DNA of 64,000 nucleotides from Patiria pectinifera. Taxonomy: Eukaryota; Echinodermata; Asteroidea; Valvatida; Asterinidae. The position numbers and the translations under genes are program-made. Of the stretch, positions 20,376-61,717 are shown one piece after another. The notes under the pieces are model-generated. The model was not told the origin of the DNA. It worked only from the letters and a program-made list of their open reading frames with translations, and did no database searches. The stretch spans positions 23,450,197 to 23,514,196 of the forward strand of contig CM057149.1 in NCBI GenBank assembly GCA_029964075.1, read 5' to 3'. Positions within the stretch are counted from its first letter, which is position 1. The number at the start of each line of letters is the position of its first letter.

Positions 20376-20578
20376 TTAACCCTAATGTACCTGATTCCAT
20401 CAAAATCCACACCCCTGTTTTGGAGAAATTCAGAGTTTTCAGATTACCTCGATATTGAATAAGTTGGGGATTTTGATGGATTCAGGACAGTAAGCCTAGT
20501 GGTACTGCAGGATTTTGATGGATTCAGGATAACTCCATATTGAGCAGTTGGGGGACTTTGATGGAATCAGGATCTTAA
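20376..20578. mobile_element. TTAA-flanked word element (word with AT core)
   Basis: TTAA at both ends, left end continuing as ccctaatg. Inside, the word GGATTTTGATGGATTCAGGA or a close variant occurs three times, and once as its complement. The right end lacks the clean GGTTAGGG seen in sister elements, so the boundary is less sure. Confidence 0.5.
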
Positions 20579-20741
20579 CTCCTTGGCTATATGTTTGGTG
20601 CGTACGGGAATGTACGGGGAACAGTGCCTTCAAGCCAGCCGCACTGAATGGCCGGCTTACATTCAGTCAGAACCCCCGGTCTAATCTCCCTGCTTGTTGA
20701 TCACGTGTCAGCACAGTGTTAGCTGCACATGTCAGTAATGT

Positions 20742-20864
20742 GCAGGTGCGGCCTACAAGTCTGGCTGTAACTATACATTGATGGATCAATAGTCATGATA
20801 GCAGGTGCGGCCTTCAAGTCTGGCTGTAACTATACACTGATGTATCAATAGTCATGACAGCAGC
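20742..20864 (+). repeat. Tandem duplication of about 60 bp
   Basis: Two head-to-tail copies of gcaggtgcggcctacaagtc followed by tggctgtaactatacattga, with three or four differences between copies. It is followed by short cagcatgacagcag slippage repeats. Confidence 0.75.
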
Positions 20865-20939
20865 ATGACAGCAGAATGCAGCGATATTCGGTAAGACTAC
20901 AAGAATGTGTATACTTGGTTATGAAATGTTTTATGGGGA

Positions 20940-21182
20940 TTTAGGGAACGTCTCAAAAGTCGGAAAGCTTGCAACGTTCCATCGGGGAACATCACCTGTT
21001 CCGATTGGGAACATGCGTTGTTCCCACTGGGAACAGCCCGGGAATGCTAGGTGTTCCCAAGTAGGAACGTTGGTTTATCTATGCACGTGCACGCTTACTC
21101 GAGAACGGCCTGTTCCAGTTGGGAGCACGTCAGGAGCACAGAACGTTCCCAATGGGAATGGAAATACGGAACAGGAACGTTC
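20940..21182. repeat. Cluster of GTTCC...GGAAC palindromes
   Basis: About nine instances of the half-site GGGAAC or its complement stand here, mostly paired as GTTCC-n4-6-GGGAAC, for example gttccgattgggaac and gttcccactgggaac. Flanking words are otherwise unrelated. It directly abuts the hAT-like element at 21183, whose target duplication cgttc is part of the cluster. Confidence 0.55.
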
Positions 21183-22410
21183 CAGGGGTGTGAGTGGAGT
21201 AAAAAAAAAATAGCTGAAAATAGCTGAACCTGTAAATAACCGAACCTGCGAGCGCGAAGCGCGAAGCCCTTACGGCGTGGGGTCCGGGGCCCGCCCAAGG
21301 GCCCCGGAAAAATTTTGAAATGTAGATGCTCTGTGGTGCATTTTAAAGCCTCCTGGCATGCCTGGGCCAACTATTGGTCGAAATGTTTTGCAATTTATGC
21401 ATGTTTTTAAGTTAAATTTTCCTTCATATTGGCTTGAAACTGCCTAAATGGCCAACTTGTATATGAAAACTGGGAAATTCGACCACGTTTTCCATATTTT
21501 AACTCCTTACTGCATGTACTGCACATCGTCATCGCGTGTTCCGGCTTCTGATCGAGTCGCCTAATTTCTGCCCATTAACCATGTGTTCCATCCAAATCCA
21601 TTTCCACCGATTCGTAACCTGAGGATCGGTCTTGTCAATGTCCGTATCAAACTCCGAACCTCTTTGGATAATAACACATTTGTGTTGCACTGACATCTTG
21701 CGGAATTAATAATGTCAAAATACGTTCGAAACATTTGAAACGACACACTAACGTACGTATCAGCATGCAGCGAAATACGCAGCAGGATGCGTGCATGCAA
21801 TGAAATGCACGCATGAACTTTGCCCCGCATGATGCCCTCTACCGGCGTGGCACGGCGACAATTTACTAGTCTTATTTCAAGGCTTTATATTTGCAACAAG
21901 ACGATGTTTACAGCGAGTTATTGTGGAGATCATCGCGTGTCACTACATGCATAGACACAGGAACGGCCGCAAAGAGTCCCAACGCGCTTCATGGCGCATG
22001 TGTGAATATTCATATTTATCTGCAGCCAATCACAGCGCAATGACTGTTCGTTCCCTGGATGCTGTTTACACGTTGTGTACACACGCGGGTTCGAGCTGAA
22101 AAATGCATGCACATGGCATCGTATAGTACACACGTACGTACGTATATGTACATGTACAATGTACATGTACATTGAATACTCGCTTGCACGCACCCCATCC
22201 CAGAGCTACGTGTTTGTTGTAGAGAGCGGATTGCGTGCGCTCGGCGGCGGCGGCGGAAAATAAAATAAACGGAAATATAATCAATGCATACGCGCGGGGA
22301 AAAAGCGGGGGGAAATCTGGACCATCGGAATAAAAAAAGCGGAAAACAAAATGTGGCACGCTGAACAAAAAAGCGGAAATCCGCTAAATAGCGGAGATTT
22401 CACACCCCTG
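21183..22410. mobile_element. hAT-like element, CAGGGGTGTGA ends, 1.23 kb
   Basis: Terminal repeats caggggtgtgagtgg and tttcacacccctg are flanked by cgttc on both sides (21178-21182 and 22411-22415). The left subterminal words are agctga; the right ones are agcgga and its complement tccgct. A copy of the GCGAAGCGC repeat (21249-21345) is nested inside, and a tgtacatgtacaatgtacat palindrome lies near 22147. No transposase is seen. The hAT label rests on the CAGGGGTG ends and a 5-6 bp duplication. Confidence 0.7.
21249..21345 (+). repeat. Dispersed GCGAAGCGCGAAGCCCTTAC repeat, copy 3
   Basis: The best-preserved copy of the head. It continues with ggcgtggggtccggggcccg and tagatgctctgtggtgc as at 11992. 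It is nested in the hAT-like element. Confidence 0.65.
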
Positions 22411-22609
22411 CGTTCCTTCTTTTTGAGATGCTCCATACTGCACAGAACAAAGACTAGCAGGAAATGTGTCCTGCATCTGAATTTTCTCCAGAACTACCGG
22501 GTCTAGACGGGGATGTTTGCATCTTTTCAGTTTCCGAAAGTCTTAATACGTGTTCCACATACTGTGTATCTGTGAATAAAATAAGGACTAGAAATTCAAA
22601 GACACTCAC

Positions 22610-22666
22610 CGCCCACACTCCAAGCAGATTCACAAAGAAGTTGCCGCTGAATTTCACTGCCATCAT
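22610..22666 (-). CDS. sec61a: Sec61 alpha exon, residues 307-325
   Basis: A 57-base exon encoding MMAVKFSGNFFVNLLGVWA, matching the fly form MLAVKFQGNFFINLLGVWA. Acceptor ctcctattcag, donor gtgagt, both phase 0. Confidence 0.94.
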
Positions 22667-22811
22667 CTGAATAGGAGAGAAAACAACAATCAAGACCAGC
22701 ATATTCAACAATCCAAGGTGGAAATTGTTCCCAGAAGGCACACTTTTTTATAGTAACGCTCACAAACTAGTAAATTTTAGTAGGTTTGCAGGACCAAGAG
22801 AGAGTACGGAC

Positions 22812-22952
22812 CTGAGAGATGACATACAAGTTGGAGACCAAGGTGCTCTGCAAGATGATGGGGATGTTGGAGGTGTAGAAGAGCTTGATGGGGTAGGAGC
22901 TGTACTGGCCACGGTAACGAGCCGACTTGATGGGCAGGTCCACACGGAATCC
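22812..22952 (-). CDS. sec61a: Sec61 alpha exon, residues 260-306
   Basis: Encodes [20 protein letters not shown], then [20 protein letters not shown] and NLYVISQ. This is the conserved cytosolic loop 6 with basic residues that contact the ribosome exit site, followed by a TM segment. Acceptor ends cctgcag, donor gtccgt; both junctions are phase 0. Confidence 0.95.
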
Positions 22953-23089
22953 CTGCAGGTAAAAGGTAAAGTAAGGATAAAGGGAATGAACCTGTGTTCA
23001 CAGGAACGGAGTGCCCATCTCTCTTTCTTTAGCGATTGGGTCCGACTCATATGCTGCTGTGGGGAAACTGACACACCTCCTCCACAGCG

Positions 23090-23272
23090 AGTCTGTTACC
23101 TTCCCAGCAATGAATAATGCCGGTACCCATTTGACACCTGGGTTGAGAGGAGTAATTTAGGTAAAGCAGCTTATACTTAAGGGCACAACACGCATGGCCA
23201 TGGCGGGGCTCGAACCCACAATCCCACAATCATGGGACCTGTGCTCTACTGCTAGACCACACGTGTCCGCAA
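23090..23272 (-). mobile_element. tRNA-derived SINE fragment
   Basis: On the - strand, an A-box-like gtggtctagcagtagagc and a B box tgggttcgagccccgcc are followed by ttacctaaattactcctctc and aacccaggtgtcaaatgggt. The latter is the same body type as the SINE at 17309. The 3' end is missing. Confidence 0.65.
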
Positions 23273-23849
23273 GTTAGAAGAGCCACAAACACATTGTAAA
23301 TCATCATCCCTTATTTTTTTTATTTTTTTTATTTGCTGTTCTGCAAACCTCAGTCTTGCTAACATAAGTGGAAATTTCTGGCCCCTTGGCAAGACCTCCA
23401 TCCGATTTGGAGTTGACAACCTGCCTTATAATTCAATTTACGAATAAGCTGAGTGGAACAGGGTGCAGCTTAAACACCGCTGGGACACAAAAGAGTTTGC
23501 TTTGGTTTACAAAACAAATGAGAGAGGGAGGTTGGGCTGATTTCCTCTCATTTCCAGCCCAGACGCACCGGACGGTGGGACCTCCTTTGACTCCTAGCAC
23601 TGAATGGTCTCAGTTATAGAATATCAATAGTCGGAACACTTTGGGAAGGATGTCAAAACCACACTGTAGACTTGCTCGTTTGTCATTGGATAAAGATGAA
23701 GGTACACACCCAAACACAAGTAAAAAAACCGAAGGGCACCAATATAAGATATTGTGTACATGTGGTTCTATATGGGGCAGTAAACACAATAGAACAATAA
23801 GCCTCACAAGGGAGCCTTTGGAAATCTATCTTCCTCATCAGAGATTGCG

Positions 23850-24240
23850 ATTTCAATAGGAACAATGGAGAGCAAAAGAAGGGAAACAAAGGCGTTCCCC
23901 ACGTTGCTATAACGAACATCCCGGGATCCACAGAATTGTAATAGCTATCGTTCAGCATAGCGATTTTAATCAGCCAGTGCTCTGGTATACACATGCCAAC
24001 TTTTTTGAGTCATGAAATTACAGTTTTTGAGCATACATGAGCGGCTTTTCCCTTTTACTCCTTGGGATTGCTCTTCTGTTGACACGTTTCAGTAACAATG
24101 TTCGGTATGTTTGGTACACAAAAATCGGAAGCAAAGGAAGATGTTCGGTATAGCCGAGTGTTTGGTATAGCGGTGTTCAGTACAGCGACTTTCCAATTTA
24201 TTTGTGTGCGGGCATGCCCGCCTGGAGTAGTACAATTCAT
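23850..24240. repeat. Word-rich stretch built on GTTCGGTATAGC
   Basis: Variants of gttcggtatagc occur several times at 24100-24185, and complements such as gctataacgaaca occur at 23900-23925 and atagctatcgttcagca near 23940. It resembles the other word-filled foldback stretches. Boundaries were not determined. Confidence 0.35.
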
Positions 24241-24460
24241 GCAGTAGCCATGTCTAGTGGACCATTCCAGCTTTGGTCATAAGCCTAACAGCGTTTGGTG
24301 TGGATACATTTCTCACAGCGGTTGTGACCGAATTTGACCTGTGGTCACTGGACAAAAACGTGATCTCATCAGTCAATGCGTAGGGATATCCTATCAAGGA
24401 GTTTGCACAGTATTTTACAGATGCAGATGCACCACATGATTGACAGGTTCAGCCAGCCGA

Positions 24461-24590
24461 ACTCGGCAAGCTCAGTGGTCGACTGGTAAGCAAGAGGTCG
24501 TGGGTTCGAGTCCCACCCGAGTGATTTATTTCTATCACTTGGCACAACACTGAGCATACAGTGTTAATATATCAAATATGGGGAAGGGAA
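24461..24590 (+). mobile_element. tRNA-derived SINE head with shortened tRNA part
   Basis: The end sequences actcgg and ccgagt pair, and gtgggttcgagtcccac forms a perfect T arm. The D-arm and anticodon parts are fused by a deletion, so this is not a functional tRNA. The downstream phrase cacttggcacaacactgagc and atacagtgttaata belongs to a SINE body common in marine invertebrates. Confidence 0.6.
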
Positions 24591-24597
24591 AAAAACC

Positions 24598-25135
24598 AAT
24601 ATTGGGCTGACAAGTACGAAGGGTACGTTCTCATGAGATCTGATTCAAGACACTTCAAAACAAATTTTATGTAAATTTAGAGTCGCTTTTTGGTGTGCAT
24701 AATCGTGACTCCTCGACAGATTTTGAACTCAATATTGGGCCGACAGGTACGAAGGGTACGTTCTCATGAGATCTGATTCAAGACACTTCAAAAACACATT
24801 TTATGTAAATTTAGAGTCGCTTTTTGGTGTGGATAATCGTGACTCCTCGACAGATTTTGGATTCAATATTGGGCCGACAAGTACGAAGGGTACGGTCTCA
24901 TGAGATCTGATTCAAGACACTTCAAAACAAATTTTATGTAAATTTAGAGTCGCTTTTTGGTGTGCATAATCGTGACTCCTCGACAGATTTTGAACTCAAT
25001 ATTGGGCCGACAAGTACGAAGGGTACGTTCTCATGAGATCTGATTCAAGACACTTCAAAAACACATTTTATGTAAATTTAGAGTCGCTTTTTGGTGTGGA
25101 TAATCGTGACTCCTCGACAGATTTTGGATTCAATA
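24598..25135 (+). repeat. Four-unit satellite of 133/134 bp in dimer arrangement
   Basis: Units start at 24598, 24731, 24865 and 24998, each opening with aatattgggc. Units 1 and 3 share gtgcataatcg and tttgaactc; units 2 and 4 share gtggataatcg and tttggattc. The array is thus two copies of a 267 bp dimer. It ends right before the exon at 25256 and lies in a Sec61 intron. Confidence 0.92.
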
Positions 25136-25255
25136 TCATTACCGTAACATTACAAGTCTTGTCAGGGCTGTAGTGGGGTGGGCGTAGACATTGCAGCCGC
25201 TACAAATATGTGGCCCGTGAAACTGACATAATATTAGAATGACAGCCCTACTTAC

Positions 25256-25416
25256 CTGGAAATAGATGACGATGGCAAAGACCAGCAGTGTAGCCATCAG
25301 GTTCATCAGGTTGGGTAGGTTCTGCCTGTAGAAGGCCTCACGCAGGGCACGCACCTTGTCGGTACGGGTGGCCAACAGGTGGAAGAGGGCAATCACAGCA
25401 CCCTCAAACTCGGTAC
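25256..25416 (-). CDS. sec61a: Sec61 alpha exon, residues 206-259
   Basis: Starts with two bases of a Gly codon (phase 1). It encodes [40 protein letters not shown] and [13 protein letters not shown]. Acceptor tgtatttcag, donor gtaagtag. It contains a TM segment and the start of a cytosolic loop. Confidence 0.96.
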
Positions 25417-25625
25417 CTGAAATACATAGGATAGTATGAGGTCATTCTTGGTGTGTAAAGGCACCACATAAACGACCAGCATGCAGTTTATCACCATTCA
25501 GAAATACTGAGTGCCTTTCAGAGAATTTTTGTGTTGGAGCACTGCCATCACCACCAGGCTCAATGGTTTCATATTATTATTTACTTTATTGTTATTTCAT
25601 AATATTTTGGCAGTTTTGATTTTTA

Positions 25626-25922
25626 GTGTTTGCAAATGATCCTTTATGCCTTTTAACAAGTGTCCCAGATTGTTTTCACCTGTTGCACAGTGTGGCATCT
25701 GGAAGGGTGAAAGTGAACGGGCCACTCATTGGTTACCGTGAAGATAAATTAGTGGCAGTAAGTGATTTGCTAGCTAAATGGGAAGATATTGCAGGAACTA
25801 GCACTAGCTTGCTGACTCCACAAGGAAGTGTTTGCAAGTTAGATGGGAATTTTTGTAGGCACTCACTTAATTGTAGAATAGACAAGTTGCCTTCAACCTC
25901 AACAGCTTCCCAGCTTTTATAA
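25626..25922 (+). other. Unassigned 98-codon open frame in a Sec61 intron
   Basis: An open frame without recognisable domain, ending in TAA. It has protein-like composition (for example GYREDKLVAVSDLLAKWEDI) and an AG at about 25690 that could be an acceptor. It might be an exon of an old DNA transposon, since a Crypton-like fragment lies 0.3 kb downstream on the same strand. I do not recognise it. Confidence 0.2.
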
Positions 25923-26249
25923 AAGACGAACGAGCAAATCATAATGGCTTGCTATATAGTTGAGTTACATTTTATCACATTTAATGTGTGTTGTTACTAT
26001 ACCTCATGCATATTCATGATCGAGAGCTGAATTCTCACTGGTCCATTCACCATCAAGTGCTATTTTTGCTGTTTACCAAGCTTGCACAAGGGTATTCAGG
26101 CACAGCGTGAATACGCATGCGTAGTAAGCCATCGCACAGGTTACCCGTGCGACAGTCCACTACGCATGCACTTTACGAAGCAATCATGAAACTGTCGCAT
26201 GTAATACACATGCGCCAACATGCACACATAAATGTATAAGATTCCGAGC

Positions 26250-26457
26250 TGGATAATATTGTGGACAATAAAGATGCCTCCTCTAGGCTCTACTAAAAAA
26301 ATGTTGTCCACAATGCGGTACAAACAGATAGGAGTTACGATATTGCAAAAGAACTAAACTTTTCTGAGGTTAAACAATACTCTTCTGGTGAGCTGGACAA
26401 GTTTCTCCGACGATTTTGTGCCGAGGTGCATACTACAACTGGAAAATTGGGTAACTG
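26250..26457 (+). pseudogene. Crypton-like or KCTD1/QRICH1-type domain fragment
   Basis: The frame reads KELNFSEVKQYSSGELDKFL then RRFCAEVHTTTGKLGN. It recalls the N-terminal part of Crypton tyrosine-recombinase-derived proteins, which have the pattern L-x4-ELdklL-x-qF-x-ElRt-dG. Upstream in the same frame is ELDNIVDNKDASSRLY followed by one in-frame TAA. Inverted sequences ttactatacctcatgcatat (about 25995) and gaggtatagtaaaaca (about 26465) may bound the piece. Confidence 0.35.
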
Positions 26458-26479
26458 AATATGTATGAGGTATAGTAAA

Positions 26480-26640
26480 ACAAATATAATATGGTTTGTT
26501 ACAGGTGAATAGTAGATATTAGCTTCCCTCGGTATTGGAATTTGACGAATGAGTTCCCTCGGCTTCACCGCTTTAACTTCCAATACCTCGTGGAAGCTAA
26601 TATGGACTATCCACCCTCAAACCATGTTATAGTTATATAA
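26480..26640. repeat. Foldback sequence
   Basis: Inner arms atattagcttccctcggtat and its near complement atacctcgtggaagctaata are extended outward by atatggtttg...aggtgaatagt against actatcc...caaaccatgt. The right arm runs up to the splice donor of the exon at 26648. Confidence 0.6.
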
Positions 26641-26647
26641 TATTTAC

Positions 26648-26801
26648 CTCTTCCAGTGTTGACAGTGGCCGGACTAAATGCCCGCCAGACAATGGTCTCA
26701 CATACGTTGGTAGCAATGAAGAGGGAGATACCAGACCCGAGTCCGTAACCCTTCTGCAGCAGTTCATCTAGCAGCAGCACAATCAGTCCAGCAACAAACA
26801 G
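26648..26801 (-). CDS. sec61a: Sec61 alpha exon, residues 155-206
   Basis: Encodes [40 protein letters not shown] and [11 protein letters not shown] plus one base. It includes the conserved [13 protein letters not shown] helix region. Acceptor ccaattcccag, donor gtaaat after AGAG. Confidence 0.96.
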
Positions 26802-27434
26802 CTGGGAATTGGGACAGAGGCAACAAATGGCAAGTTCATACATGATAGTCTTCAAACTGAAACAAGTTTCTTTCAACAGTATGTAAAACATAACTTTCTT
26901 TGGCAATTAGTTTCCAATAACGACGCTTCCATAGAATATTCATGCAACCAAACCTGTAGCATACCTTCTCGTGAAAATAAACTTTGGGGATCACAGGGCA
27001 ATTGCGTGTACTTTAGACAAATCTGAGCTTGTGACTATTGTACGCAGTTTCGCCGACATAAGACCAAAACAACTGTGTTGCCCTCACATGATATATATCA
27101 ATGTATTGTCCAATTACATGACACGAAAATGGACGCGCAACGCGCAGAATCTGAGACAAACAAAACTGAACGTAACAAATTCCATAGGGTTGACCAAGGG
27201 GCATGGCACACACGCAAACGGCGATAGGTCAATACTGGGTCATATGTTCAAATTGGCCTGTGCTGTTCATTAAGAGCACATTTTCTTTTTTCTTTTTGTA
27301 GTCCACACTACAACTACTATGTTTAACACATTTGATTACCAAGCTTTTTGGGTGCGCGTCCGATCTACTGTTTTGCAGAATTGTACATTTTTGATAAGGT
27401 TTTGCGGGGAAAACAATAAAGGACATGCACCAAC

Positions 27435-27544
27435 CTGTATGATGATGAGCAGACAGATGCCGGCACCAATCTCAGCTGGGTCGCCATACATGCCAGTCAT
27501 GACGTACACGATGGCCTGGCCGACAGTTATGATCATACCAAACA
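27435..27544 (-). CDS. sec61a: Sec61 alpha exon, residues 118-154
   Basis: Two bases complete Leu118, then [20 protein letters not shown] and [16 protein letters not shown]. Acceptor tatttcacag, donor gttggt. The 110-base length fits one split codon plus 36 codons. Confidence 0.96.
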
Positions 27545-27802
27545 CTGTGAAATACCAACAAGGGAGACAAACAAAAATGCAATCAGCACAACGAACGAGT
27601 TAAGTGCCGTCCTGTCTACAGTATTAATAGCCCGAGCCATGCAAGTCACAACACAGTACAAATGGTGTGAAAGTCTGCCGAACCTTGCTGCTTTGTGCCA
27701 TCAACATGAGCGCATTAACCGCCTGTTCTGAGACAAATGGAGGTAGTCACATTGAACAATGCCACCTATTGCATCTCCTTACAGTTGGCGACTACATGCT
27801 CT

Positions 27803-28223
27803 TTAACCCTAACCCCCTAGGCCCTTGTTGCTTACAACCATCCTCAATCCTCCAAAATCCTCCAAAATTTTTCAAAATTGTCAGACAGTCCTGCCTCAAA
27901 ATGCATTCATCCTCAATCCTCCAAAATCCTCCTCATCCCAAAACTTTGCACTCGTGTTTAAATGAAGGATAACCAACGCCAAATCCTTCAAAATCATCAG
28001 ACAGTCCTGCCTCAAAATGCATTCATCCTCAATCCTCCAAAATCCTCTTGTGCTTCATTCACCATTCATCCTCAATCCTCCAAAATCCTCATGTGCTTCA
28101 ATCACCATTCATCCTCAATCCTCCAGAATCCTCATTTGATTCAATCACCATTCATCCTCAATCCTCTAGAATCCTCCAAAACCGCCAGGAGGATTTTGGA
28201 GGAGTGAGGTGGGTTAGGGTTAA
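27803..28223. mobile_element. TTAA-flanked word element (GA-core word), copy 1
   Basis: Ends are ttaaccctaacccc and gggttagggttaa, so TTAA flanks a CCCTAACCC terminal repeat, as in piggyBac-type elements. The interior is six or seven repeats of aatcctccaaaatcctc, with the opposite strand ggaggattttggaggag at the right end. No coding capacity. Confidence 0.65.
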
Positions 28224-28398
28224 TAGCCCGAGCCATGCAAGTCACAACACAGTACAAATGGCGTGAAAGTCTGCCGAACCCTGCTGCTTTGAGCCATCAA
28301 CATGAGCGCATTAACCGCCTGTTCTGAGACAAATGGAGGTAGTCACATCGAAAAATGCCACTTATTGCATCTCCTTACAGTTGGCGACTACATGCTCT

Positions 28399-28848
28399 TT
28401 AACCCTAACCCCCTAGGCCCTTGTTGCTTACAACCATCCTCAATCCTCCAAAATCCTCCAAAATTTTTCAAAATTTTGCAACTCCGCCTAAATTTTTCAA
28501 AATTGTCAGACAGCCCTGCCTCAAAATGCATTCATCCTCAATCCTCCAAAATCCTCCTCATCCCAAAACTTTGCACTCGTGTTTAAATGAAGGATAACCA
28601 ACGCCAAATCCTTCAAAATCATCAGACAGTCCTGCCTCAAAATGCATTCATCCTCAATCCTCCAAAATCCTCTTGTGCTTCATTCACCATTCATCCTCAA
28701 TCCTCCAAAATCCTCATGTGCTTCAATCACCATTCATCCTCAATCCTCCAGAATCCTCATTTGATTCAATCACCATTCATCCTCAATCCTCTAGAATCCT
28801 TCAAAACCGCCAGGAGGATTTTGGAGGAGTGAGGTGGGTTAGGGTTAA
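28399..28848. mobile_element. TTAA-flanked word element (GA-core word), copy 2
   Basis: Duplicate of 27803-28223 produced by the 596 bp tandem duplication. Same ends, same word, a few single differences and one short insertion. Confidence 0.65.
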
Positions 28849-29319
28849 TTAAGGGTCCGTCTCAATTCATATCAGTAGCAGGATTCTGAACAACTTCCCG
28901 TAATCTTCCTGTAATGAAAAGCTCAGTATTGGTGAGTGTCCGGGACAAATACAGAGCTTCTTCCGGACAAAGTGAATGATTTCTTTCCGCAACTTGTCCA
29001 GGACTCTTCCCGGATACGACTTGAAATGGGTCCTAAGGCTGTTTGGCCTGGGGATTTGTGATCTGACGAATTTTGTTAAGCAGGGCTGGCTTCTCATTTA
29101 GACAAGTACCTGAATTCCACGTTGTGACACTGGACAGGGCTTCCAGACAAAATACCACACATATAATACCACAAATATCAGGTCCTCCACTAATTTCAGA
29201 CTTACACAAACAACCAATCCTTACAAACACGCATTTGAAGCAACTTTTGAAAAGAAACAGGATTGAAGACAACAGCTTGAACGGCTCCATTTTTGGTGAG
29301 TGGGAAATTTCCGTTAGTA

Positions 29320-29872
<553 letters not shown>

Positions 29873-29961
29873 TCAAAGCCTTGTTGCTTAAAAAGGTCTG
29901 TTATGTAATGAGTGCCCCCCTTTTGAAGTAAGGAACTAACTAGTAAGGATGTGAATTTAGT

Positions 29962-30371
29962 TTAACCCTAACCGCCCTGAATCCTTCAAAATCTTCTTTG
30001 ACAAAGTGGAGGAATTTGGTGGATTGGTGTTACATGGCACAATGGCGTTACTGATTTTATAGGTGGCACTTTGTCAAGGTCTTGGGCCGGACCTTGTGTT
30101 GAGCCATGCATACATATAGGCCTGGATTATGCTTGAAATCCTCGGTACTGTTCCAGTATGTCACTGGCCAAGCCTCAACATATTGACAGTCAGTGCCGCA
30201 GGATTTTGCAGGATTCAGGCAGTGGTCACCCCTCCACGGACCACATTCAAGAAATAATGGAGGAATTCGCAGGATTGAGGCTATATATGCTATTTTTCCA
30301 GGAGGCCAATTGGAGGATTTTGCAGGATTGAGGCTACATTCTAGCAAAAAGGCCTCGGGAGTTAGGGTTAA
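29962..30371. mobile_element. TTAA-flanked word element (CA-core word)
   Basis: Ends ttaaccctaaccgccc and gagttagggttaa. The word ggattttgcaggattgaggc occurs about three times in the right half. The left part has AA and GT versions of the same template, so it may be composite. Confidence 0.55.
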
Positions 30372-30753
30372 TATTCCAAATGTGTTTAATTTTCCTGAAA
30401 CATTTAATCAGAATGCCCATTAAACATGGGACATTGTCATTATTCACTTTGCCTTCAAATTTTACTTAAGAAAGAATTCAGGATGCCTGTAAATCTGTTT
30501 AGTGCACAAAGCATAATATAAAGTGCCTCGCTACCAGGTTACAACCAAGAAACTGATTTTTTTTTTTTTTACATATTTCAGTGATCAGTATTACCACCTC
30601 CAGAGTCAACCAGCTAGACTGTAAGCAATTTACTGTTCATGATGGATTTAATATGTAAAGACCAATCTTCAATGCCTCTCATAAAGGGTGACGCAAACAT
30701 GATGTATTCTTTGTATTTGTTTGAATTGTGCAGAGAAGTTTTGCTCAATGTTG

Positions 30754-30939
30754 CAGGGGTGTGAGTGACCACTGATAAAAATAGCTGAAAACAGCTGGAA
30801 GAAAGTGTACAAAAGCTGAACTTTGGAAATCTCCTATACTTTTGTACACAGCAAATGAGGGAAAAAGCTGGAAAAAAAGCTGAAATTCAAAACAAAAAAA
30901 AGCTGAAATCAGCTTTAAAGCTGAGATTTCACACCCCTG
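30754..30939. mobile_element. hAT-like element, 186 bp
   Basis: Ends caggggtgtgagtg and tttcacacccctg are flanked by the perfect 6 bp duplication atgttg (30748-30753, 30940-30945). The interior is mostly repeats of agctgaaa and its complement. Same family as 21183-22410. Confidence 0.8.
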
Positions 30940-30951
30940 ATGTTGACCAAA

Positions 30952-31223
30952 TTAACCCTAACCCATGAATCCAACCAAATCCAACTGTATCATATACCCA
31001 ATGGAGCCTGTTGGATTGAGCAGTAAAACCCCTTGTGTTAATTCCTGATGCAAAATGTTGGATTCAGCAGGCAACTGAACCGCATTATAATGCCAAGTTG
31101 GACTCTGTTGGATTCGGCAGACAACTGAAAATAAGGCACAGTGGATTGAGCAGGAAACTCCGGTTGGACTCTGTTGGATTGAGCAGGGTAGTCATGAGGA
31201 ACTACTAGGGGGTTAGGGTTAAT
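30952..31223. mobile_element. TTAA-flanked word element (TT-core word)
   Basis: Ends ttaaccctaaccc and gggttagggttaa. The word ggactctgttggattgagca or close forms occurs five times, and once as its complement gaatccaaccaaatccaac. No coding capacity. Confidence 0.65.
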
Positions 31224-31333
31224 TACACGGATTCCCATCACTGCTGTACAGGTGTAGACTCATCCTTACTAACGAGCCCAAGTCCCAACCAACATTTGGG
31301 AAATGTAGTCCATGCGTGCATGCTGGACCTTAC

Positions 31334-31412
31334 CTCTGTTTGACGCCATAATCACACGCATCCAGTAGAAGGGATCAGCTGAATCCGAAGACATAATACC
31401 AAACAGGGGAAT
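31334..31412 (-). CDS. sec61a: Sec61 alpha exon, residues 48-74
   Basis: Encodes [20 protein letters not shown] then IMASNR and one base of Gly. This is the lumenal plug region of the channel. Flanked by gttttag and gtaagg. Confidence 0.96.
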
Positions 31413-31913
31413 CTAAAACAAGTCAAATGGAATATGACTAAACACACATTGCTCCCATTTTGCTTCATTTAAACTCTTAATTGAAGGGCATACGCAATGT
31501 AATGTTTTAAGCGCAATCCCGGAAAATGCACCTTTGCGTCCCATTTTAATTTACTTTCAATTTTTGTTTTGCCATTTTCCAGGTTCTTTTGGTGCCTTTT
31601 TGGTTTTTATACTTATGCAAGTTCCAGATTCATGAGCAAAAGCTATTTCTGACCCAAAAATTGCCAGAATGTTAGATAATTGGCTGTCGTGAATTTTCTT
31701 TTCTTTGGGGATTTTTGTGTCAGTACATGGCAGTGAGCAAACTTTTCTCACAGATGTTTGCAATGAGCAAATGTTTGAGTTCACAATTTGAACAGACAAC
31801 CACTAAACCAAACAGTGTTTTCCTGAAATGACATCACAGCAACAGCGCCCTCAGCTGTCCAGAAAATCTAAAGGTTAAATGTTTTACAAAAGTGCAATAA
31901 GAAGTTAATAAAC

Positions 31914-32158
31914 TTAACCCAAAAAAGGATGTCAAATAGTTTTCATACATTTAATCCTAAACCCCACGGGGTATTCTCTAGGCACCCTGCCAAATGCAAC
32001 AGAATGCAGTGCCAGCCTTGGTACCAGGTACCTACCCTGCCAAATGCAACGGAACGCAGGGGTGGAATGCATCAGATCAGGACACTGCTGAATGCAACAA
32101 CTTGCAACAACTTTTTACCATTGCTGCATCCTATTACATTTAGCAGGGTAACGGTTAA
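31914..32158. mobile_element. Possible TTAA-flanked word element (GCATT word)
   Basis: TTAA at both ends, with a less clear CCCTAA terminus. Inside, ctgccaaatgcaacagaatg and variants occur three or four times; in complement the core is GTTGCATTTGGCAG, close to the GTTGGATTCGGCAG of the neighbour at 30952. Confidence 0.4.
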
Positions 32159-42780: not shown

Positions 42781-42990
42781 GTTCTAAAAGTATTCATGTC
42801 ATCCAAGCGTGCAATCCGCGATTAAGAAACAACACATACACTACAGTCGAGTGCAGATTATGCCTATACGGTTGTGGACGGTGTTCCTATAGTTGAACAG
42901 TACTCGATCGTTTTATTCGAGTCTCGGTTCTTCTGAAGAATGTGAGCAAATGTCGTTAACAGTCAGTAAGGTGCCAGAGGGAAAGTAAAA

Positions 42991-44124
42991 ATGGAGGAAT
43001 CGGGGAATTTCAGCGGGCAGACTTACACTAGCGGCAATTCAGAGTTATCTACTGGAGAGAAGATCACTTGTATTGGACTGAATGTGATACTGATGGTTCT
43101 GATAGTCGTGGGGAATGGCCTACTCCTGTTTGCAATAATTAAGGCCAAGGAGTTGAAGAGAAGCAGCCGCATCTTTCTGGTTTCGCTGACTGTGGCCGAC
43201 CTTTTCGTCGGTCTTGTTGTCATCCCAGTGCGGGTGGTACCGCAGATCATTGGCATCTCAATCGGCAGCACCTGGTTTCTATCTGACCGGTTCTGCGAGA
43301 CGTTATTCTTTCTAGAAATCTTCGCCATTGGAGCTTCAGTTCTAGCAATACTGGCCCTGAGCATTGAGAGGTATCTGGCCGTGGAGATGCCGCTGAGGTT
43401 CCGCTCCATGCTGACTTCTTGTCGAGCGTTCACCGTGGTTGCTTGCTCCTGGCTCGCAAGCCTCTGCACGGCGTCCATCTTCGTCATCCTCTCGGTGGTC
43501 AACGAGGATAGATTTTTTTTAGTTTTTGACGGATCTTCGTCGCTGTGTGTCATCAAAGGCCTGAATTGGGTGACCCGTTTCATGTTTCTGAGCCTCATCG
43601 TTGTGTTTTTACTCGTACCGTTTTGCGTCACTTTTCTCGCTTCGATTCGCATTCTGCATATCGTGAAGAATCACACCGGGTTTCAGAAACAGGCTCCCAA
43701 CCCGTCCGACTGCAATTCCGCGTGCAGACAGACCTCATCGGCGAGCGGAGCCAAACGGTTTCCCCAGGCCCAACGGACTGGTAATGGAGCTTGCCGTGGA
43801 CTCTGCAAGCGTTTCCTTGACAATAAGAAAGCCTTGGTCACCGTTCTTATTGTCGCACTTTCCTATTCAGCCTCCAGTGTACCGTCTGTCATTTGTGTGT
43901 TGTACATGGAGTTTTTTTCCTACAGTGTTGACCAATTCCTCGTTGAACTAGCCAAGTTGTCATTGTTTACCAGCTGTTTCATCAATGTCATCGTTTACAC
44001 AGTACGAAACAGGGCGTTCAGGGGGTCGGCCAAGCGTCTACTTTTCCGACTGTTCCCTGTCAGATTACGTTGTAACACTGTTAGACGGCACCCAGTCAGA
44101 TCGCAAGCCGACAACCTGAGCTGA
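42991..44124 (+). CDS. Rhodopsin-class GPCR, receptor 1, 377 residues, intronless
   Basis: Seven-TM receptor without introns. The short N-terminus has a glycosylation site (N6-F-S). Landmarks: N42 (1.50), SLTVAD with D70 (2.50), C102 (3.25), E109 at 3.32, ERY 126-128 (3.49-3.51), W154 (4.50), C186 in loop 2, P210 (5.50). TM6 reads SYSASSVP, so the usual W before P is Ser; TM7 reads NVIVY instead of NPxxY. Loop 3 has a basic Cys-rich CRGLCKRFL. The TM2 motif recalls amine receptors, but Glu replaces the amine-binding Asp. Start ATG 42991 is shared by all four paralogs (MEESGNF/Y). Ligand unknown; a chemosensory role is inferred from the tandem intronless arrangement. Confidence 0.9.
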   Translation: MEESGNFSGQTYTSGNSELSTGEKITCIGLNVILMVLIVVGNGLLLFAIIKAKELKRSSRIFLVSLTVADLFVGLVVIPVRVVPQIIGISIGSTWFLSDRFCETLFFLEIFAIGASVLAILALSIERYLAVEMPLRFRSMLTSCRAFTVVACSWLASLCTASIFVILSVVNEDRFFLVFDGSSSLCVIKGLNWVTRFMFLSLIVVFLLVPFCVTFLASIRILHIVKNHTGFQKQAPNPSDCNSACRQTSSASGAKRFPQAQRTGNGACRGLCKRFLDNKKALVTVLIVALSYSASSVPSVICVLYMEFFSYSVDQFLVELAKLSLFTSCFINVIVYTVRNRAFRGSAKRLLFRLFPVRLRCNTVRRHPVRSQADNLS

Positions 44125-47555: not shown

Positions 47556-47871
47556 TTTCTTTGTCTTTTAATATGACTTGAATGGTTGACAGAACGGTAG
47601 TCGTGAACGGTTAGGCAGCAAAACGTTAACAACGGCGAACAGATATAACACGCATTACATCAACCGCTAGAAGCATACGTTTCATCCAAGTTTGAAAGCA
47701 GTACTTTAGAAACAACACACTTCGGTCGAGTGCAGATAAATCCAACTATTGTGTACAGTGTTCTTTTAGGTGAACAGTACTCTATCGTAATGTTCGAGTG
47801 TGAGGTTCTTTGAACGCACGTAACAGAGCGTATGTCGTTAACAGTCAGAAAGGTGCCGATGGTAAGTGAAA

Positions 47872-48954
47872 ATGGAGGAATCGGGGAATTACAGCGGACA
47901 GACTTATTCAGAGTTATCTACTGGAGAGAAGATCACTTGTATCGTACTGTACACTACACTGATGGTTCTGATAGTCGTAGGAAATGGGCTACTCCTGTAT
48001 GTAATCATCAAGGCCAAGGAACTGAAGAGAAGCAGCCGCATCTTTCTGGTCTCATTGACTGTGGCCGACCTCTTCCTTGGTCTTGTTGTCATCCCAGTGC
48101 GAGTCGTACCGCAGATCATTGGCATCTCAATCGGCAGCATCTGGACCGTGTCTGACCGACTGTGTGAGGCGTCAAACTTCCTTGAAGACTTCGCCATTGG
48201 AGCCTCGGTCCTGGCGGTACTGGCCCTGACCATTGAGAGGTATCTGGCCGTGGAGATGCCGCTGAGGTTCCGCTCCATGCTGACTTCTCGTCGGGCGTGC
48301 ATCGTGGTTGCTTGCTCCTGGCTCATGAGCTTATGTACGGCGTCCATCCTCCTTATTCTATCGGTGGTATACGAGAGTCGATTCGTAGCATTTGACGGGC
48401 CATCGTCACTGTGTGTCATCAACAAACTAAGTGGGGTGACCCTTTTCATGTTTTTGGACTTCATCATTGTGTATTTCCTTATACCACTTTGTGTCACTTT
48501 TCTCGCTTCAATTCGCATTCTTAACATCGTGAAGAACCACACCGTGTATCAGAAGCAAGCTCCAAAAAATGTACCCCAACGGGTGTGTGATGGAGTTTGT
48601 CGTGGACTCTGCAAGTGTTTCCTGCGCAATAAGAAAGCCCTGGTCACCGTTCTCATTCTCACGCTTTCGTATTCAGTCTCCAGTATACCGTTTGTTGTTT
48701 GTATGTTTTACATCATGTTTTCTCCTTATGCTGTTGACCAACTCCTCGTTGAACTAGCCAAGTTGTCATTGTTCAGCAGCTGTTTCATCAATGTCATCGT
48801 ATACACAGGACGAAACAGGGCGTTCAGGGGGTCAGCCAAGCACCTTCTTTGCCGACTGCTCCATGTGAGATGCCACACTGTTAGACGGCACCCAGTCAGA
48901 TCACAATCCGACAACCTGAATGTCAGTGTCTCCACCCAAGATACGCACTTGTAA
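47872..48954 (+). CDS. Rhodopsin-class GPCR, receptor 2, 360 residues, intronless
   Basis: Paralog of receptor 1 with the same plan. The ATG at 47872 is chosen because MEESGNYSG aligns with the other starts; the two codons before it are not ATG-led. TM3 reads CEASNFLEDF, again Glu at 3.32, with ERY kept. TM6 has SSIP, TM7 NVIVY. The N-terminus lacks four residues (YTSGN in receptor 1) and loop 3 is shorter by about 16 residues, which accounts for the length difference. The C-tail ends STQDTHL, close to the TQDTYL of receptors 3 and 4; receptor 1 stops earlier. No break is seen. Confidence 0.9.
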   Translation: MEESGNYSGQTYSELSTGEKITCIVLYTTLMVLIVVGNGLLLYVIIKAKELKRSSRIFLVSLTVADLFLGLVVIPVRVVPQIIGISIGSIWTVSDRLCEASNFLEDFAIGASVLAVLALTIERYLAVEMPLRFRSMLTSRRACIVVACSWLMSLCTASILLILSVVYESRFVAFDGPSSLCVINKLSGVTLFMFLDFIIVYFLIPLCVTFLASIRILNIVKNHTVYQKQAPKNVPQRVCDGVCRGLCKCFLRNKKALVTVLILTLSYSVSSIPFVVCMFYIMFSPYAVDQLLVELAKLSLFSSCFINVIVYTGRNRAFRGSAKHLLCRLLHVRCHTVRRHPVRSQSDNLNVSVSTQDTHL

Positions 48955-54390: not shown

Positions 54391-54648
54391 TTCTGTCTTT
54401 TAATATGACTTAAGGTTGACAGAACGGTGGTTGTGTTGGGTTAGACATTAACACTTCAACAACGGCGAACAGATAGGTAACATGCATTACATATTAGCCG
54501 CTAAAAGCGTTCCTGTCATCCCAGTTTGGAAGCCATGTTGTAGAAGCAACACCCTTATGTCGAGTGCCGATTAGGCGTACCGTTGTGGACAGTGGTTTTG
54601 GGTGAACAGTATACTCGATCCTGTTATTCGAGTAGGGGAAAAGTGAAA

Positions 54649-55791
54649 ATGGAAGAATCGGGGAATTTTAGCGAGTGGACATTTACAAGCGGCAATTCAG
54701 AATTATACAATGGAGAGAAGATCACTTGTATAGTACTGTATGCTATACTGATGGTCCTGATTATCGTGGGAAATTTCCTACTCCTATTTGTTACAATTAA
54801 GGCCAAGGAATTGAAGAGAAGCAGCCGCATCTTTCTCGTCTCGCTGACTGTGGCCGACCTCTTAGTTGGTCTTGTTGTCATTCCAGTGCGGGTCGTACCG
54901 CAGATAATTGGGATCTCCATCGGCAGCACCTGGTACGCGTCTGACTGGTTGTGCGAGGCGTCATACTTCTTTGAAATCTTCGCCTTTGGTGCCTCAGTTG
55001 GGGCGGTACTGGCCCTGACCATTGAGAGGTATCTGGCCGTGGAGATGCCGCTGAGGTTCCGCTCCATGCTGACTTCTCGGCGAGCGTACGTCGTGGTTGC
55101 TTGCTCCTGGCTCGTCAGCATTTGCACGGCGTCCATCTTCATCATCCTCTCGGTGGTCTACGAGGATCGATTCGTAGTCTTTGACGGGTCTTCGTCGGTG
55201 TGTGTCATCAACAGGCTGAATTGGGTGACCCGTTCCATGTTTCTGAGCTTCATTGTTGTGTACTTCCTCATACCGTTTTGTATCACTGTTTTCGGTTCGA
55301 TTCGCATTCTGTACATCGTGAAGAATCACACCGCGTTTAAGAAGATTTCACCTAACCGATCTGACTGCGCGTGCAGACAGACCTCAGCGGCCAACGAAGC
55401 CAAAAAGGTACCTCAACGCATTTGTAATGAAGTTTGCCGTGGACTCTGCAAGTGTTTCCTTGGCAATAAGAAAGCCTTGGTCACCGTTCTCATTGTCACG
55501 CTCTCTTATTCAGCCTCCAGTGTACCCTTTGTCGTTTGTTTGGTGTACATGAAGTTTTCTCCCTATATTGTGGACCAATTCCTCATTGAACTAGCCAAGT
55601 TGTCATTGTTCACCAGCTGTTTCATCAACGTCATCGTTTACACAATACGAAACAGAGTGTTCAGGGAGTCGGCCAAGCGCCTTTTTAAGGTACTTCTCCC
55701 CGTGACATGCAACGCTGTTACACGACAACCAGTCAGATCGCAATCCGACAAGCTGAACGTCACTTCCCACACTCAAGATACGTACTTGTAA
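54649..55791 (+). CDS. Rhodopsin-class GPCR, receptor 3, 380 residues, intronless
   Basis: Paralog of receptors 1, 2 and 4. ATG 54649 aligns with the family start MEESGNFS; the frame is open 22 codons further upstream, but that part corresponds to untranslated sequence in the other units. TM3 reads CEASYFFEIF with Glu at 3.32, then ERY; TM6 SYSASSVP; TM7 NVIVY. It has an N-glycosylation site at the N-terminus and in the loop 3 region a DCACRQTSAANEAKK stretch like receptor 1. The C-tail ends SHTQDTYL. The 5' UTR text is shortened compared with units 2 and 4. Confidence 0.9.
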   Translation: MEESGNFSEWTFTSGNSELYNGEKITCIVLYAILMVLIIVGNFLLLFVTIKAKELKRSSRIFLVSLTVADLLVGLVVIPVRVVPQIIGISIGSTWYASDWLCEASYFFEIFAFGASVGAVLALTIERYLAVEMPLRFRSMLTSRRAYVVVACSWLVSICTASIFIILSVVYEDRFVVFDGSSSVCVINRLNWVTRSMFLSFIVVYFLIPFCITVFGSIRILYIVKNHTAFKKISPNRSDCACRQTSAANEAKKVPQRICNEVCRGLCKCFLGNKKALVTVLIVTLSYSASSVPFVVCLVYMKFSPYIVDQFLIELAKLSLFTSCFINVIVYTIRNRVFRESAKRLFKVLLPVTCNAVTRQPVRSQSDKLNVTSHTQDTYL

Positions 55792-60380: not shown

Positions 60381-60562
60381 TTCTGCCTTTTAATAAGACT
60401 TCACGTTGGCAGAATGGCTCCACTTGAAAATGTGTTCCACTAGTGGACAGTGTTCCTTTAGGTGAACTGTACTCGATCGTGTAATCGCGTTTGAGGTTCT
60501 CTGAACGCATGTGACTGAGTGTACGTCGTTAACAGTCAGAAAGGTGCCTGAGGAAAGTGAAA

Positions 60563-61717
60563 ATGGAAGAATCGGGAAATTTCAGCGGGCAGATTTATAC
60601 CAGTGGCAATTCAGAGTTATCTACTGGAGAGAAGAAAACTGTTATCGTACTGTACACTATACTGATGGTTCTGATAGTCGTAGGAAATGGGCTGCTCCTG
60701 TTTGTAATCATCAAGGCCAAGAAACTGAAGAGAAGCAGTCGCATTTTTCTGGTCTCGCTGACCGTGGCCGACCTCTTAGTCGGTGTTCTTGTCATCCCAG
60801 TGCGGATCGTACCGCAGATCATTGGCATCTCCATTGGCAGCACCTGGACCGCGCCTGACCGGTTCTGTGAGGTGTTATACTTCCTGCAAGTCTTCCTCGT
60901 TGGTGCTTCAGTCCTGGCGGTACTGGCCCTGACCATTGAGAGGTATCTGGCCGTGGAGATGCCGCTGAGGTTCCGCTCCATGGTGACTTCTCGTCGGGCG
61001 TGCATCGTGGTTGCTTGCTCCTGGCTCATGAGCCTTTGCACGGCGTGTTCCCTCGTTATCCTATCGGACTTATTCGAGGGTCGAGTGGTAGTCTTTGACG
61101 GGTCGTCGTCGCTGTGTAAGCCTATCGTTGACATACTGAGTGGGGTGAACCTTTTCAGGTTTCTGTGTTTCCTCATTGTGTATTTCCTCATACCACTTTG
61201 CATCACTTTCCTCGCTTCGTTTCGCATTCTGTACATCGTGAAGAATCACACCGCGTATCAGGAGCAGGCTCACAATCCGCCCCACCGCAACCGTGCGCAC
61301 GGACACACCGCAGCGGGGAGCGGAGCCGAAACACCACCCCAACGGCCGTGCAATGGAGCTTGCCGTGGACTCTGCAAGTGTTTCCTGCGCAATAAGAAAG
61401 CCTTGGTCACCGTTCTGATTGTTACAGTTTCTTATTCAGCCTCCAGTGTACCGTTTGTTGTTTGTATTTTTTCCTTGCTGTTTTCTCCCTACAGTGTGGA
61501 CCAATTCCTCGTTGAACTAGCCAAGTTGTCATTGTTCACCAGCTGTTTTATCAATGTCATCGTATACACAAAACGAAACAGGACGTTCAGGGAGTCGACC
61601 AAACGACTTCTTTGCGTACTACTCCCCGCGAGATGCAACGCTGTTAGACGAGACCCAATTAGATCGCAATCCAACTACACGAGTGTCACTTCATCCACTC
61701 AAGATACGTACTTGTAA
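60563..61717 (+). CDS. Rhodopsin-class GPCR, receptor 4, 384 residues, intronless
   Basis: Longest member of the array. ATG 60563 aligns with the paralogs. TM3 reads CEVLYFLQVF, so 3.32 is Gln here while the other three have Glu. ERY, the loop 2 Cys, SSVP in TM6 and NVIVY in TM7 are as in its paralogs. Loop 3 is more variable and His-rich (HNPPHRNRAHGHTAAGSG). Loop 2 carries a three-residue insertion around LCKPIVDIL. The C-tail ends STQDTYL. No break is seen. Confidence 0.9.
   Translation: MEESGNFSGQIYTSGNSELSTGEKKTVIVLYTILMVLIVVGNGLLLFVIIKAKKLKRSSRIFLVSLTVADLLVGVLVIPVRIVPQIIGISIGSTWTAPDRFCEVLYFLQVFLVGASVLAVLALTIERYLAVEMPLRFRSMVTSRRACIVVACSWLMSLCTACSLVILSDLFEGRVVVFDGSSSLCKPIVDILSGVNLFRFLCFLIVYFLIPLCITFLASFRILYIVKNHTAYQEQAHNPPHRNRAHGHTAAGSGAETPPQRPCNGACRGLCKCFLRNKKALVTVLIVTVSYSASSVPFVVCIFSLLFSPYSVDQFLVELAKLSLFTSCFINVIVYTKRNRTFRESTKRLLCVLLPARCNAVRRDPIRSQSNYTSVTSSTQDTYL

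Follow-up and report, generated by a model that had tools for sequence, protein, structure and literature searches.

The piggyBac transposon of T. ni targets TTAA, has CCC tips and encodes a DDE_Tnp_1_7 transposase with a C-terminal zinc domain, the cysteine-rich domain (CRD), which binds 19-bp internal repeats. A CRD dimer binds base pairs (bp) 17–33 of the left end, bp 34–63 of the right end are almost identical to bp 7–35 of the left end, and the internal repeats lie at unequal distances from the two tips (PMC7351741). In piggyBat of Myotis lucifugus, where a number of subterminal sites are present, residues R543 and E545 of the CRD loop contact bases (PMC11707139). We analysed a 64,000-nucleotide stretch of the Patiria pectinifera genome (hereafter the window; C21:23450197-23514196 in a 613.5-Mb assembly), in which small piggyBac-type miniature inverted-repeat transposable elements (MITEs) ending in TTAACCCTAAC are filled with a repeated word. 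These elements and their autonomous relatives resemble T. ni piggyBac in putative TTAA target, tips, type of transposase and zinc domain, and in the unequal distances of their internal repeats from the two tips. Unlike in T. ni piggyBac, the sites here start at about bp 12 and 36, recur further inward and look like a direct repeat with a spacing of 10 bp, and the genome contains at least eight site sequences side by side. Unlike the words described here, the piggyBat sites comprise a GCGGGA motif and an imperfect palindrome, the latter on one end only, and the accessible part of that account describes no lineage-specific series of words (PMC11707139). We suggest, with a probability of roughly 80% and judging from sequence, that the words are lineage-specific transposase binding sites that co-vary with the CRD, multiplied in part by tandem copying.

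The words follow a common template, NN-c1c2-AYT-YTG-NN-c1c2-AYT-nRG, in which two similar half-sites lie 10 bp (about one helical turn) apart. The template is used in at least eight versions (GA-GG, CA-GG, AT-GG, AT-GC, AT-TG, TT-GG, TT-GC and TA-GT). The half-sites of one word agreed better with each other than with those of other families (family means: c1c2 0.61 versus 0.38; NN 0.32 versus 0.10), with an NN agreement of zero in AT-GC, AT-TG and TT-GC. Genome-wide pattern counts of these repeats are lower bounds. The exact pattern GGATTTTGNNGGATTSAGG was found at least 6945 + 7376 times (14,321 words), compared to 0 + 0 for the reversed pattern, and TTAACCCTAACCC, the target TTAA with the tip, at least 1734 + 1711 times, compared to 22 + 14 for its reversed control. 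Among the 14,321 words NN is GA in 5129, CA or TA in 6115, AT in 1148, TT in 19 and one of the remaining 11 of the 16 dinucleotides in 1910; the TT family goes uncounted in this total since its words read GGACTCTGTTGGATT, outside the pattern. A chance origin, or one from GA-rich low complexity, is ruled out by the reversed-pattern controls (mostly 0) and by shuffles.

Our MITE sample consisted of 60 stretches (some spanning two places) from the first 100 listed TTAACCCTAACCC places of contig C1, together with three GGATTTTGNNGGATTSAGG loci. Eighteen of these 63 loci, without a partner end in the stretch, were set aside (11 carry template words, nearly all of known types, and 7 carry none); the other 45 and four window elements gave 49 elements in 11 clusters, the GA-GG cluster taking in 25 of the 49. 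TTAA flanks both sides of 36 of the 45 fetched elements, the C1 loci having been picked with a search pattern that itself includes TTAA, and flanks beyond TTAA are mostly unrelated, as seen for the largest cluster. Some pairs of copies have flanks in common and do not count as independent: in L070 and L071 the flanks lie in inverted order, in the two GA elements of the window in the same order. The CCCTAAC tips form short terminal inverted repeats that fit the CC[C/T]T start of piggyBac (PMC2872659). The same source describes coral CMITEs, which like the present elements are TTAA MITEs tied to piggyBac-like transposons and contain tandem arrays; there, a 75-bp inner region is common to the families and the tips vary, whereas here the tips are common and the inner words vary. 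Among the remaining TTAACCCTAACCC ends, L121 starts with an apparent further word version, TTGCTTTTAGCAGG, and L112 and L122 have a common start with doubled CCCTAA and no template word.

A preliminary description of the window, made from its letters alone, had proposed that the words vary far less within elements than between them. We scanned 36 sequences (12,640 bases), hand-chosen to cover the eight types and including 8 of 26 GA elements, with the fixed template AYT-YTG-four free bases-AYT-n-R-G, allowing one mismatch. This found 165 words, in both orientations, compared to 5.4 on average, and 12 at most, in shuffled sequence; the right end of L019 gave no word at one mismatch, and a word was seen there at two. 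All four free bases agreed in 0.477 of the pairs drawn from one element, compared to 0.023 of those drawn from different families. When each family was represented only by its element richest in words, agreement within elements exceeded agreement between families by 0.36; 0 of 2000 permutations reached this value, the largest giving 0.13. On these 36 chosen sequences the proposal thus holds. The accompanying claim that NN is nearly constant within an element is borne out to the extent that words agree within elements, but strict constancy had to be rejected, as one MITE family keeps a fixed CA-TA-CA order and GA elements also contain AA words.

Could the words be homogeneous through copying inside elements alone, by tandem duplication, slippage or conversion, and bind nothing? 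Both GA elements of the window contain 43-bp tandem arrays, L106 has an array of repeated TT-GC-type words, and flanks are shared in 66 of 378 scorable within-element word pairs, 54 of the 66 being in GA elements. In the other 312 pairs, however, flank identity is near chance (0.28–0.38) while word identity is 0.50–0.89 (family means; no pair came from TA-GT). Part of the whole-word figure is owed to the fixed template positions, but the identity of the free positions N, N, c1 and c2 is 0.56, 0.69, 0.77 and 0.93, and per-position flank identity is below these (0.17–0.36 on the left, −20 to −3; 0.14–0.52 on the right, +25 on). Words also occur in both orientations, and they keep fixed distances to the tips in families with different words. 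Pure tandem copying is therefore rejected as the main cause, and we consider an origin by copying alone, with no bound protein, improbable. The spread of words by copying inside elements, offered as a possibility in the preliminary description, fits the 66 pairs and the 43-bp arrays and fails for the 312.

A second alternative is that families differ in their words through a neutral founder effect, each family descending from one ancestral copy whose changed positions are read by no protein. MITE copies do take over the words of their master, and the families have indeed diverged from one another. Against this, the same code is kept within an element despite unrelated flanks, which founder drift would erode, and NN and core are linked genome-wide: with NN left free, of 223 words with the core GCATT the first 100 listed include 84 with TT (reversed control 0), and words with GTATT have TA in 44 of 61 (33 + 28; reversed control 2 + 8 = 10). 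We regard the founder explanation as very improbable.

The position of the words relative to the tips was scored with outward-pointing words, at two mismatches, in 54 elements and in 50 rounds of shuffled ends. A word starts at bp 11–13 from one tip and another at bp 35–38 from the other in 34 of the 54 elements, and in none of the shuffles. By family, both positions were found in 22/26 GA-GG, 3/7 CA-GG, 3/5 AT-GG, 3/3 TT-GC, 2/3 TA-GT and 1/2 TT-GG elements. Taken singly, the bp-12 word is seen in seven of the eight families (not AT-TG) and the word near bp 36 (35–37) in all eight. Such a recurring position near each tip is what a transposase-binding site predicts. In several ends of the 36 type, a TTTTTGCTAG-like stretch is common between tip and word, perhaps a second contact.

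Autonomous piggyBac-type relatives, predicted from the window, were found in the same genome, lying inside TTAACCCTAAC ends, bearing words and differing in their C-terminal DNA-binding domains. A search for PF13843, the piggyBac transposase domain, gave 110 genome matches (0 of those listed inside the window), and 30 loci were fetched and scanned. L024, L017 and L016 lie wholly inside TTAACCCTAAC ends with words at both ends, as does L020 once flank is added, and their frames run, stop to stop, for 828, 817, 826 and 800 codons, respectively. L019 and L018 have one TTAACCCTAAC-type end each, the frame of L018 being shorter and without the N-terminal part in the alignment. By eye, the words are of the GGAGGAATTTGCAGGATTSAGG type in L017 and L024, TGCATTCTGTTGCATTTAGCAGG in L016, TAGTATTCTGTAGTACTGAGT in L020, ATGCAGTTTGATGCATCTGGCAGG in L019 and TTGGAGTTTGTGTGGTTAGGG / GATTGATTGGGTAC in L018. 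The bp-12 end is 5′ of the open reading frame (ORF) in L024, L017 and L016 and 3′ of it in L020, so that the gene does not run in the same direction with respect to the two end types in every lineage. A tree of 22 frames places these six, L022, L030 and the distant L036 in one supported clade. L036 was rejected by eye as an autonomous source of CA words: a MITE of the type found at 29962 in the window lies upstream of its ORF. Three Asp residues (DDD), in alignment columns that we take to be the catalytic ones, are at aligned places in L024, L017, L016, L019, L020 and L018. In Pfam, DDE_Tnp_1_7 was recognised in all three proteins scanned, and zf-Tnp_2 scored above cut-off in L024 and L016 and below it in L020. 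With phmmer, L024 aligned with the transposase of 6x67/6x68 (E 7.1e-30), the latter being T. ni piggyBac (PMC11707139), and with piggyBat (E 3.3e-27), an alignment that extends over the CRD. The L024 C-terminus, used as a protein query, gave 62 matches; among fifteen more stretches fetched, CA-type words occur in L048, L049, L051 and L058 and TT-GC words in L050. In all, five word types have a transposase with a readable CRD, complete in four of them, and a sixth (GA-GG, in L054) has a broken one.

The words might instead bind a second element-encoded protein or a host protein, for example an anti-silencing factor as in the VANDAL elements of Arabidopsis. VANDALs, like the elements here, have short family-specific motifs arrayed in non-coding parts, and those motifs evolve with the transposon-encoded protein that binds them, often through tandem repeat formation (PMC5735166). 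The extra inward words, beyond what end synapsis may need, would also suit such a protein. Unlike VANDALs, where VANC is an anti-silencing protein, the candidate reader here is the transposase and the words lie at fixed tip distances. In L024, L017, L016 and L020 no other frame comes near the transposase in length; the next longest have only 264, 214, 156 and 215 codons (introns not considered), and most frames of at least 100 codons overlap the transposase, although the shorter frames were not searched for relatives. The recurring distance of the words to the cleavage site, and a transposase CRD loop that varies with the word, likewise speak against a separate binder, which we think unlikely to be the explanation.

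The CRD follows the pattern CxxC-loop-GCxxC...C...C, with six Cys columns invariant over eight aligned sequences. The loop reads LENDGVTKSGRVKTTRSG and LHNDGVTQSGRVKTTRSG in the CA-GG lineage, LRTKKKSTKRVPMTRHG in TT-GC, LRTGRKNSSGNTPVTRHG in AT-GC, ARDKKKTPSGFPVKTHFG in TA-GT and REHNILTKAGLPKSTRRG in AT-TG. Loop identity is 0.88 in the single same-word pair, L024/L017 (catalytic core 0.74), and 0.12–0.50 in the 14 different-word lineage pairs (core 0.48–0.68). TRHG before the second Cys pair is common to both GC-core lineages. By analogy, loop residues here may correspond to R543 and E545 of piggyBat. The autonomous relatives, their C-terminal differences and the tip-word geometry together support the idea, raised in the preliminary description, that the repeats bind a transposase of changing specificity, the binding here being a prediction from sequence.

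Several observations weigh against lineage-specific binding or narrow it. A word and a readable CRD are known together in only five lineages, too few for a statistical test, and the conservation of the loop with the word is seen in a single lineage (L024/L017; L048, L049 and L051 have loops resembling theirs). A like pattern would result if the loop simply diverged more quickly than the core in distant pairs of any kind. Some candidate readers are damaged or missing. In L054, which has GA words at its right end, the CRD is interrupted beyond the first zinc ligands. In all three TA-GT copies (L020, L023 and L026) two stop codons directly follow CFPR and end the frame short of the place where the relatives have their last zinc ligand, and this lineage may therefore have an incomplete CRD. 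No transposase was found for AT-GG and TT-GG in the genome searched, so that their partners may be lost from the genome or absent from the assembly. The words themselves are not uniform: the CA-TA-CA order means that NN varies inside MITEs, and in the CA piggyBac the tip word carries GA, with CA and GA mixed inside the 5′ end. Nor is the geometry universal, as the two positions do not occur together in 20 of the 54 elements, among them all AT-GC (0/5) and AT-TG (0/3) elements. Moreover, 17 weak matches at two mismatches start at bp 2, overlapping the tip, and a further match lies at bp 47 in 20 GA ends; we take the matches at bp 12 and 36 to be the putative sites in preference to these. Finally, the best direct-repeat offset is 10 in all eight families and scores above the best inverted arrangement in seven of them (TT-GG narrowly), but this score is partly built in, because the template carries AYT in both halves. 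The CRDs of T. ni piggyBac bind a palindrome and the words here look like direct repeats, so the docking mode of the CRD may differ.

Were the words read by the transposase, the two CRDs of a dimer could sit on the two half-sites of a word, and the tip offset between the ends would build, as in T. ni piggyBac, an asymmetric left-end/right-end synapse. Words lying deeper inside might raise avidity or titrate transposase. NN and the core bases would be the part read by the fast-changing CRD loop, and we propose that the lineages in one genome would therefore be isolated in recognition, with TTAA targeting and tip sequence staying common. Each transposase would cross-mobilise the MITEs bearing the same word, and small tandem duplications within elements may multiply words locally. 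In its widest form, which we hold to be an even bet, the proposal is that this piggyBac clade keeps cleavage, TTAA targeting and the 12/36-bp geometry and has repeatedly altered its CRD loop in step with a code of two to four bases carried by tandem half-sites 10 bp apart. Sister lineages would then be orthogonal, each with its own MITEs, and the direct-repeat site would imply a CRD docking unlike that on palindromes in the piggyBac and piggyBat complexes whose structures are solved.

At least eight site versions, five with a candidate reader domain, in one genome and on one template and end geometry would amount to a natural specificity series. A recognition code for piggyBac-type CRDs is thereby directly testable and could guide orthogonal piggyBac tools. 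The series would also give a cause for the MITE families of one genome looking like variations on one theme. How a transposase changes its end recognition without loss of function is, in our judgement, hard to study one element at a time. We found no report of such a word series in the open-access literature; subscription papers and repeat databases were outside the search.

L022 (C1:14899576-14900724) and L030 (C9:2880427-2881536) are long piggyBac-related frames (748 and 767 codons) that show the Cys pattern of the CRD but have changed catalytic Asp positions, not all three Asp being at the aligned places. Their loops are 0.59 identical and their cores 0.49, with no words known for either. 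About 8 kb around each contained no TTAACCCTAAC-type end pair (one weak one-mismatch match lies near L022), and no template words save one two-mismatch match 3′ of L030. They are candidates for host-adopted DNA-binding proteins. Similar CRDs occur in L052, L055, L056, L057 and L060.

In the window, a scan at three or fewer mismatches recovered the words, and the NN values first given for five elements all proved right. Four complete elements of 271–450 bp are non-coding and have ends in common, with thousands of words genome-wide, as befits MITEs. The TTAA-CCCTAA borders described for the five are present as TTAA-CCCTAAC at both ends of four. The fifth, at 20376..20579 (+), is a 3′-truncated copy of the AT-GG MITE family, with left end TTAACCCTAA and four words, all with NN = AT; it aligned to L085 (1–223 of 361) and L087, no right end was found, and its match to the AT family stops at about 20579. 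The GA-GG MITE at 27803..28223 (−; 421 bp), a member of the GA-GG cluster, has TTAACCCTAACC at both ends and words mostly with NN = GA, part of them in the 43-bp tandem array at 28020-28176. At its tip (27803-27815), as at others, the target TTAA and the tip read TTAACCCTAACCC, which is similar to the telomere repeat common in animals. The element at 28399..28848 (−; 450 bp), also GA-GG with words mostly GA, has its 43-bp array at 28645-28800. It had been listed as a separate element, but it is a tandem duplicate of 27803-28223 together with flank, and the two are therefore not independent. The duplication spans 27624..28848, with a unit of about 175 bp of flank plus the GA MITE and the TTAA at 27624-27627 as its left boundary; the copies align from base 27628 through the right TTAA of the element, with some substitutions and 29 bases only in the second copy. 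It starts exactly at a TTAA, as if, at a guess, aberrant transposition had used the ends of two copies, rather than ordinary unequal exchange.

The CA-GG MITE at 29962..30371 (+; 410 bp) has two ends, NN = CA at 30201, 30262 and 30315, a decayed copy with NN = AA at 29976 in the left tip and a further GT match at three mismatches; its words lie 12–31 and 36–55 from the tips. The TT-GG MITE at 30952..31222 (+; 271 bp) has two ends and words reading TTGGACTCTGTTGGATTSRGCAG, and it clusters with L105. A possible element at 31914 is indeed present, but its bounds are 31951..32158 (+) and its word, TGCATTCTGTTGCATTTGGCAGG, is a different one. This TT-GC MITE begins ttaatccta, has decayed ends (TTAATCCTAAACC ... 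GGGTAACGGTTAA), aligned to L097 (209 bp) and matches the autonomous L016 in word type; it entered the word and geometry scans from 31952, its positions 35–54 there corresponding to 36–55.

Elsewhere in the window, four similar long single-frame ORFs lie on the + strand at 42970-44124, 47866-48954, 54544-55791 and 60533-61717. The first, which is the one scanned, is a rhodopsin-class receptor (7tm_1), and the four probably form a tandem receptor cluster. A tandem array of about four 134-bp units, with 95% matches, occupies 24597-25136.

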